Positions 36,773-52,680 of a stretch of 64,000 nucleotides of DNA are shown piece by piece. The notes beneath the pieces were generated by a model that did not search any database, had not been told where the DNA came from, and saw only the letters and a program-made list of their open reading frames with translations. Origin of the DNA: Bryobacteraceae bacterium (lineage in GTDB: Bacteria > Acidobacteriota > Terriglobia > Bryobacterales > Bryobacteraceae); the NCBI GenBank assembly GCA_023384675.1, contig JAHDVK010000001.1, positions 152,404 to 216,403 of the forward strand. Direction: 5' to 3'. The stretch's first letter is position 1. Each line of letters begins with the position of its first letter. The position numbers were made by a program, and so were the translations under genes.

Positions 36773-36860
36773 TGGTGCCCGGGGTGGGACTCGAACCCAC
36801 ACGGTGATTACTCACCAGCGGATTTTAAGTCCGCTGCGTCTGCCATTTCGCCACCCGGGC
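36773..36860 (-). tRNA. tRNA-Leu (anticodon UAA)
   Basis: Read on the minus strand: acceptor GCCCGGG pairs with CCCGGGC, D-arm, anticodon stem GCGGA/TCCGC with loop CTTAAAA giving anticodon TAA, a long class II variable arm (TGGTGAGTAATCACC), T-arm GTGGG-TTCGAGT-CCCAC, discriminator A and an encoded CCA. All arms pair, so the gene looks functional. It reads UUA, a very rare codon in this GC-rich sequence. Confidence 0.97.
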
Positions 36861-52139: not shown

Positions 52140-52183
52140 TCGGCGACCGGGGCCGCAAGGCGGCGTGCTACACTAAAGGTGGT

Positions 52184-52281
52184 TTGACGGTTCAATAGGT
52201 TTCGGTTAGATCCGCTTGCGTTTCCCGCTTGTTAACTCTTTCCGCTTAGTGTCCCGCTTTCAGATCAGAAAAGAGTTCAAC
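52184..52281 (+). promoter_or_regulatory. Structured leader of the RRM gene with four CCGCTT motifs
   Basis: A promoter-like pair TTGACG (52184) and TTAGAT (52206) is followed by CCGCTT at 52212, 52225, 52242 and 52254. AACTCTTT (52234-52241) is complementary to AAAGAGTT (52270-52277); with a one-base bulge the pairing extends by GTT/AAC to base 52281, directly before ATG 52282. The 3' arm includes the purine-rich ribosome site, so the stem would hide it. The pairing is seen; its regulatory use is inferred. Confidence 0.45.
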
Positions 52282-52614
52282 ATGAAAAACATTTTTGTCG
52301 GCAACCTCGGCTTTGGGGTCACCGAAACCTCCCTGCGTTCTCTGTTCGAGCAGCACGGCGCCGTGGACCGGGTCAGCATCGTGACGGACCGGGATACCGG
52401 ACGTTCACGTGGCTTCGGCTTCGTCGAGATGGGCAACGATAGTGAAGGCAACAACGCGATCGAAGCGCTGAACGGCGCGGATCTCGATGGCCGCACGATG
52501 AACGTGAACGAAGCGCGCCCCCGCGAGGAGCGTTCCTCCGGCGGCGGCAACCGCGGCGGCGGCGGCGGCTACGGCAACCGCGGCGGCGGCGGCGGACGCC
52601 AGTCCCGCTGGTAG
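52282..52614 (+). CDS. Glycine-rich RRM RNA-binding protein
   Basis: 110 aa: one RRM (about 1-80) with RNP2 I-F-V-G-N-L and RNP1 R-G-F-G-F-V-E-M, then an R-G-G-rich tail (85-110). Similar single-RRM proteins in cyanobacteria and other bacteria are often cold-induced RNA chaperones. ATG 52282 follows AGAAAAGAG; upstream in-frame residues fall in the leader and are not part of the RRM. Strong terminator follows. Confidence 0.93.
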   Translation: MKNIFVGNLGFGVTETSLRSLFEQHGAVDRVSIVTDRDTGRSRGFGFVEMGNDSEGNNAIEALNGADLDGRTMNVNEARPREERSSGGGNRGGGGGYGNRGGGGGRQSRW

Positions 52615-52639
52615 TTCAAGCCACGAATTGCAGAATCAG

Positions 52640-52680
52640 GCCCCGATCCGGCAATCACCGGATCGGGGCTTTTCTCGTTT
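52640..52680 (+). terminator. Rho-independent terminator after the RRM gene
   Basis: A perfect 12-bp stem GCCCCGATCCGG / CCGGATCGGGGC with loop CAATCA is followed by TTTTCTCGTTT. Begins 26 bases after the stop codon. The clearest intrinsic terminator in the window. Confidence 0.92.

Follow-up and report, generated by a model that had tools for sequence, protein, structure and literature searches.

Is the ribosome site of a small RNA-binding-protein gene held open or hidden when the leader before it can fold in more than one way? The gene in question encodes an RRM protein and lies in a stretch of 64,000 nucleotides (nt) from a Bryobacteraceae bacterium (contig JAHDVK010000001.1, positions 152,404 to 216,403), which we call the window. 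A preliminary description of this DNA had proposed that a stem covering the ribosome site is the control element. Folding of the leader and comparison with its relatives led us to a different, long-range stem, here called P1. Our preferred reading, to which we give slightly less than an even chance, is that the gene carries a conserved two-state leader of about 100 nt, in which P1 would leave the ribosome site open, an anti-Shine-Dalgarno (anti-SD) pairing would hide it, and RRM protein would set the balance with temperature as an input.

In the window, P1 comprises eight contiguous pairs (Table 1). When positions 52178–52300 were folded, its probability was 0.910 at 37 °C, 0.818 at 20 °C, and 0.538 at 10 °C. 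P1 closes the minimum-energy rod, and positions 52268–52284 are unpaired when the fold stops at the ATG. A fold of 52165–52300, which includes promoter bases, gave a different structure (z 0.29) and was set aside.

The family evidence comes from 210 leaders collected from genome contigs and genomes, with exact duplicates removed. Discarding near-identical and short sequences left 158 (no start was found in L161 or L132). Exclusion of eleven hand-picked loci (other phyla or divergent genes), together with a length filter, reduced these to 147, and in 130 of these a -10 match passed a score threshold set without regard to the TTTGA box or the pairing. In many family leaders the -10 match starts 17–19 nt ahead of TTTG, and in many TTTGA lies shortly past the extended -10 box with CAAAT just ahead of the ribosome site. 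Both boxes are enriched across the 130 leaders, TTTGA with 88 occurrences (21.5 in shuffles) and CAAAT with 58 (16.4 in shuffles). By eye, the leaders fall into several sub-classes, and the boxes read from them co-vary: GATTTGA occurs with TCAAATC, GTATTTTGA with TCGAAATAC, AGTTC with GAACT, and CTTTTGA with TTGAAAG, TTAAAAG, or TCGAGAG.

The strongest support for P1 was provided by a swap test, in which the computed duplex of each 5′ box with the pre-ribosome-site box of the same leader was compared with its duplexes with the boxes of other leaders, the 5′ region being anchored on the -10 box. Among the 130 leaders, true pairings reached −7.64 kcal/mol compared to −6.06 kcal/mol for swapped ones (z −8.2, 0 of 5000 permutations). 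The preference persisted when the set was cut to the 44 leaders with less than 75% identity (z −5.1, 0 of 5000), and two control regions were null at both sample sizes (z −1.2 to +0.4). At least six contiguous P1 pairs were present in 92 of the 130 true combinations versus 51% of the swapped ones. A wider 5′ region (−125 to −60, promoter DNA included) left the test blind to P1 (z −0.7) and was replaced. The leader of a second RRM gene in the same genome (L001) has nine contiguous P1 pairs.

Alignments added partial support. On hand-made groups, RNAalifold recovered P1 in each of the classes A, B, and C. The unfitted class C alignment held 8 two-sided changed cells compared to 3.3 in shuffles (2 of 500), and its covariation score was reached in 0 of 500. 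After fitting, class A held 22 such cells (9.2 shuffled) and class C 16 (6.7 shuffled); in each class, neither the cell count nor the covariation score was reached in any of 500 shuffles. One of these fitted counts includes two reverse-strand matches (L106 and L266; 29.9 bits). For both percent paired and covariation score, P1 far exceeded all slid controls.

Covariance models were built on hand-written structures. Searched on both strands with filters off, model R1 matched the 64 kb just once at E values up to 10, over the leader from end to end (20.5 bits, E 0.05). To wider searches with the models we owe a view of the genes behind the leader: 67 of the listed matches were taken as model loci (model seeds included), and 20 weaker ones were chosen by hand. 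An RRM gene directly follows the leader in 66 of the 67, and the remaining one stops at a contig edge. The weaker matches precede an RRM gene in 16 cases and infA, the gene of translation initiation factor IF-1, in two; the other two lack an intact RRM match. In these last loci, L293 (G174:C298) and L306 (G165:C831), an apparently broken or strongly altered RRM gene follows the leader match. An 18-base class A pattern matched 25 times in 237 family genomes, at 22 RRM genes, the same two infA genes, and one unrelated locus (L324, rejected), and its reversed control had no match in the same genomes.

Several results weigh against the two-state reading. On the window itself, the R1 match is weak, models R2 and R3 give its leader 2.2 and 5.5 bits, and wider model searches gave no match in the window's own genome. 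Given the end-to-end R1 match, these low scores, and that silence, we regard the window leader, with moderate confidence, as a divergent member of the conserved RRM leader kind. With 16 coding bases included in the fold, its ribosome site is about half paired at 37 °C (0.34–0.77 per base), the partners being local, in the gene start. Within the family, only 8 leaders are left at 65% identity, and the swap test falls to z −1.9 (132 of 5000). The best same-genus matches, L006 and L007, have a different leader; L006 has five contiguous pairs, yet a gapped duplex of −10.7. Beyond the family, 18 loci of the same class, drawn from four further families, gave a null swap test, and their leaders are mostly different; a -10 match was found in 4 of these loci and a clear P1 in one. 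Long P1-like pairing occurs in L081 (titled Acidobacteriaceae), L089 (titled Sulfotelmatobacter), and L393.

The alignments also contribute to this side. RNAalifold failed to return P1 on alignment A1, and the unfitted class A and B alignments carried no covariation beyond shuffles. Counted by pairs with two-sided change, class A (6 versus 5.6; 262 of 500 shuffles) and class C (5 versus 3.1; 27 of 500 shuffles) did not clearly exceed their shuffles. Slid controls matched the two-sided cells, with 22 in class A at slide −3, and at slide +3 with 15 versus 16 in fitted class C and 8 versus 8 in unfitted class C. Alignment covariation is mixed and partly supporting, and P1 rests mainly on the swap test. 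Finally, the leaders are not unusually stable (mean minimum free energy (MFE) z 0.26). This would suit an explanation without RNA structure, in which the boxes are shared as DNA elements or simply by descent, as would the roughly fixed distance of TTTGA from the -10 box, and relatedness can inflate shuffle tests. Against this, the 5′ box of the same leader is a better match for the far box than the 5′ boxes of other leaders are, also among the 44 divergent ones, and we regard this explanation as highly improbable.

The pairing singled out in the preliminary description is real as a pairing. Positions 52231–52241 (GTTAACTCTTT) can pair with 52270–52281 (AAAGAGTTCAAC) through eight pairs (52234–52241/52270–52277), a bulged C at 52278, and three further pairs (52231–52233/52279–52281). 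As claimed, two pairs of the eight-pair core are G-C, and the purine-rich ribosome site lies within the 3′ strand, which abuts the ATG at 52282. The margin of the stem over chance is narrow: when the leader body was shuffled with its dinucleotides preserved, 216 of 5000 shuffles (4%) paired with the ribosome-site segment at least as well as the real body does in its best duplex (−10.0 kcal/mol), and of the swap-matrix pairings between the window leader's interior or ribosome site and those of other leaders, 15% were equally good. At 37 °C the stem is the minor fold. In the fold of 52178–52300, cooling from 37 to 20 and 10 °C raised its mean pair probability from 0.046 to 0.136 and 0.381. Forcing the stem cost 2.3, 0.4, and 0 kcal/mol at 37, 20, and 10 °C when the fold ended at 52284, and 2.6, 2.0, and 1.0 kcal/mol when it ended at 52300. 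At 10 °C the fold to 52284 has the stem as its minimum, 0.5 kcal/mol below the P1 fold; the two folds then lie within 1 kcal/mol, and which of them leads depends on the folded 3′ end. At 37 °C, the P1 fold is favored by 2.3–2.6 kcal/mol. The pairing is there; it barely stands out from chance, and folding at 37 °C does not predict it as the ground state.

The suggested opening with heat is reproduced in so far as the computed probability falls on warming (0.38 at 10 °C, 0.05 at 37 °C), though it stays below that of P1 in the fold to 52300. The fall comes mainly through replacement by P1, and its direction is wrong for a gene expected to be cold-induced. Used as a DNA query against the 237 family genomes, the leader matched three, its own included, and yielded no ortholog; the two non-self matches are short stretches, neither covering 52231–52241, and the stem seems peculiar to this genome.

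Across the family, support for this type of pairing is mixed. Most swap tests gave z −0.8 to +0.9. An exception favored anti-SD pairing (z −2.3, 56 of 5000, n = 44), and the 5′-end region with the ribosome site spoke against it (z +3.1). A site-anchored 46-nt upstream region gave z −3.2 (6 of 2000, n = 130) and −2.1 (41 of 2000, n = 44), other site-anchored regions ranged from +0.2 to −2.4, and unanchored ones from −1.8 to +2.9. Complementarity near the ribosome site exceeded that of shuffles (t −3.1, n = 130; t −2.7, n = 44), weakened in wider regions (t −2.2 and −1.6), and was null in the far region. Strong single anti-SD cases are L013 (−13.6 kcal/mol) and L058 (−12.2 kcal/mol), and in the fold of L005 the ribosome site is covered by a CUCU/AGAG pairing. 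In the window, an unusual AAAGAG site faces CUCUUU, as would be in keeping with a matched change. Altogether, family support for a pairing that hides the ribosome site is modest and was chosen from several regions, which counts as a further point against the two-state reading.

Could the stem over the ribosome site nevertheless be the control element itself, acting as a local switch that heat or protein would open? Its exact eight plus three pairs, its computed trend with temperature and minimal 10 °C fold to the ATG, and the modest family signal, including L005, speak for this. The shuffles that do as well, the low probability at 37 °C, the mostly null swap tests, and the two other genomes whose DNA matches bypass 52231–52241 speak against it, and we judge it quite unlikely. 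What stands of the preliminary description is a structured, probably regulatory RRM leader that has no Rfam name; the stem is no more than a candidate for the element.

We return to the two-state reading, for which family P1 comes from comparison and window P1 from folding, while the two states and the control by protein are what we infer. In the family, the predicted transcript begins with nucleotides that pair with a box next to the ribosome site on its 5′ side, which closes the leader as P1. The ribosome site, immediately 3′ of P1, would then be more open. Consistent with P1 as an open state, shuffling the bodies of the 44 divergent leaders makes their ribosome sites on average slightly less accessible (0.49 unpaired in the true leaders versus 0.43, t 2.5). 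In the other state, an interior anti-SD segment (52231–52241 in the window) would pair with the ribosome site and hide it. As P1 and the site-covering stem cross, the two states would exclude each other or meet as a pseudoknot, a kind of structure left unscored by the folding programs used. The balance would be set by RRM protein binding to UCC(Y)GC-type motifs in its own leader, with temperature as a second input.

Such motifs are enriched. TCC(Y)GC occurs 0.98 times per leader compared to 0.30 in shuffles (n = 44, z 8.2). Upstream of infA and csp genes it is also enriched (0.37 versus 0.18 shuffled, n = 54, z 3.3), so the excess may be partly general, or anti-SD in nature. The window leader holds four copies of CCGCTT, each preceded by T or TC and resembling the motif. 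Any 6-mer occurred four times in 71 of 5000 shuffles of the interior, and the window leader is alone in this among the 130. Repeated short sites would suit binding by a single-RRM protein, as in the autogenous control proposed here.

A bolder version of the two-state reading strikes us as doubtful. The leader would represent an undescribed class of cis-regulatory RNA, widespread in Bryobacteraceae. If true, the extreme mRNA 5′ end would serve as an anti-anti-SD that captures the box before the ribosome site and keeps the site open, the repeated UCC(Y)GC sites would let the RRM protein flip its own mRNA into the SD-hidden state, and the borrowing by infA in at least one genus would hint at a small RRM-leader regulon. 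P1 could also act simply as a stabilizer of the 5′ end against 5′-end-dependent decay, with no switching at the ribosome site. The start of its 5′ strand at about the predicted transcript start agrees with this role, but a local hairpin would be cheaper, and it would be left unexplained why the partner box is placed just ahead of the ribosome site and why TCC(Y)GC-type motifs are enriched. We consider a pure stabilizer unlikely.

The infA cases bear on a further alternative, a cold-responsive leader of the cspA type in which cold-shock refolding raises translation of the RRM protein. The leaders concerned are L300 (G226:C70, 97–205) and L303 (G227:C397, 96–204), both of class A, with the P1 5′ strand reduced in the model alignment. 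IF-1 is a cold-shock factor, and the presence of the same leader kind before infA in two genomes would favor this alternative. Against it, cold favors the site-hiding fold in computations on the window, which is the wrong direction, and 60 other infA and csp loci (30 of each among those found) had no convincing model match. One row among the 60 was sub-threshold (13.4 bits, E 4.8), and a regulon of infA and csp leaders was rejected. A cspA-type response appears distinctly unlikely here. Separately, a cold-shock-domain gene adjoins infA in at least six family genomes (G063:C58, G169:C11, G101:C254, G027:C38, G068:C96, and G165:C1208).

How does the leader compare with known systems? Rfam gave no match to it in the window at the gathering threshold, and none in eight leader loci up to E 1. 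In RNA thermometers of the ROSE and FourU types, the ribosome site lies within a stem rich in A-U pairs close to the start codon. The stem in the window resembles them in its A-U-rich cover of the ribosome site and its computed weakening on warming; it differs in that its anti-SD is CUCUUU rather than UUUU, and in that a competing long-range fold dominates the computed ensemble. Rfam models of this thermometer kind had no match in the window. The cspA leader of Escherichia coli is a thermoswitch with two alternative folds before the gene of an RNA-binding protein. Shared features are a leader of about 100 nt or more, two alternative folds, and an RNA-binding-protein gene, whereas the window leader has no Rfam match and its computed temperature direction is opposite.

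Two systems concern RRM genes directly. The Chlorobi-RRM RNA motif (RF01697) is listed as a probable cis-regulatory structured RNA of Chlorobi (Weinberg et al. 2010, PMC2864571). It too is a cis-regulatory candidate bearing the RRM name; it belongs to another phylum and is set apart here by Rfam non-match rather than by a comparison of structures, RF01697 having no match in the window (gathering threshold) or in the eight leader loci (E 1). In cyanobacteria, rbp genes are reported to carry conserved cold-response boxes in the 5′ untranslated region (Maruyama 1999 and Hamano 2004, as cited in PMC9333190). By that description the points in common are conserved boxes in the leader and an RRM gene whose product has a glycine-rich tail, in another phylum; the likeness is one of description and not of compared boxes. 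With these two cases, regulated leaders on RRM genes are already known as a kind, and the Bryobacteraceae P1 version looks new. No paper on an RRM leader in Acidobacteriota was found in the literature searched, supplementary files lying outside the search. The window leader looks like a divergent member of a conserved, apparently unnamed kind that, in soil Acidobacteriota, stands before genes for RNA-binding proteins. Within Bryobacteraceae, RRM genes are common. To our knowledge, the RNA targets of bacterial RRM proteins are hardly known, and the conserved leader is a concrete candidate target. It offers a testable feedback circuit, and the models allow more members to be found.

Table 1. Features of the RRM gene and its leader in the window.
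Feature	Position	Strand	Basis or remark
Predicted extended -10 box of the RRM gene, TGCTACACT	52166..52174	+	Family -10 matches
Whole leader	52177..52284	+	End-to-end match of covariance model R1 (class B relatives)
P1, 5′ strand, TGGTTTGA	52180..52187	+	Pairs with 52260–52267, p 0.91 at 37 °C
P1 inner extension, 5′ strand CGG	52188..52190	+	With CCG 52254–52256; leader MFE, duplex
Stretch with four CCGCTT copies	52212..52259	+	Copies at 52212, 52225, 52242, and 52254
Stem over ribosome site, 5′ (anti-SD) strand	52231..52241	+	
P1, 3′ strand, TCAGATCA	52260..52267	+	Abuts ribosome site; counterpart of relatives' TCAAAT-type box
Stem over ribosome site, 3′ strand	52270..52281	+	Bulged C52278; includes ribosome site AAAGAG
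RRM protein gene, 110 aa, glycine-rich tail	52282..52614	+	Open reading frame; Pfam RRM_1, E 1.2e-20
Terminator-like stem, 14 pairs, 3′ of RRM gene	52638..52671	+	One found; shuffles mean 0.9

The RRM gene, whose product is a single RRM of 110 residues, has a gene pair for a DUF485 protein and a sodium:solute symporter upstream and an ADP-ribosylglycohydrolase gene downstream. Its transcript would be expected to start at about 52180–52182, given the -10 box; no sigma-70 two-hexamer promoter was called. It is one of three RRM genes in the source genome, and a match to it at E ≤1e-25 is present in 220 of the 237 Bryobacteraceae genomes. Three flanking proteins had no match in any other locus above 2 kb that was compared for synteny, so no ortholog of this RRM gene copy is known.

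Some smaller observations were made alongside. Among the RRM genes of other families (within L393–L422), several have CCTGCC followed by TTGACTCCATCAAA-like boxes, and these CCTGCC-type leaders perhaps form a local TTGA/TCAA hairpin. Locus L062 (CALQCC020000030.1), titled a Bordetella parapertussis metagenome-assembled genome, agrees with family contig G026:C30 in length and location and carries the same leader, and the title looks wrong. A tRNA gene on the minus strand at 36776–36860 is the only Rfam match in the window at the gathering threshold.
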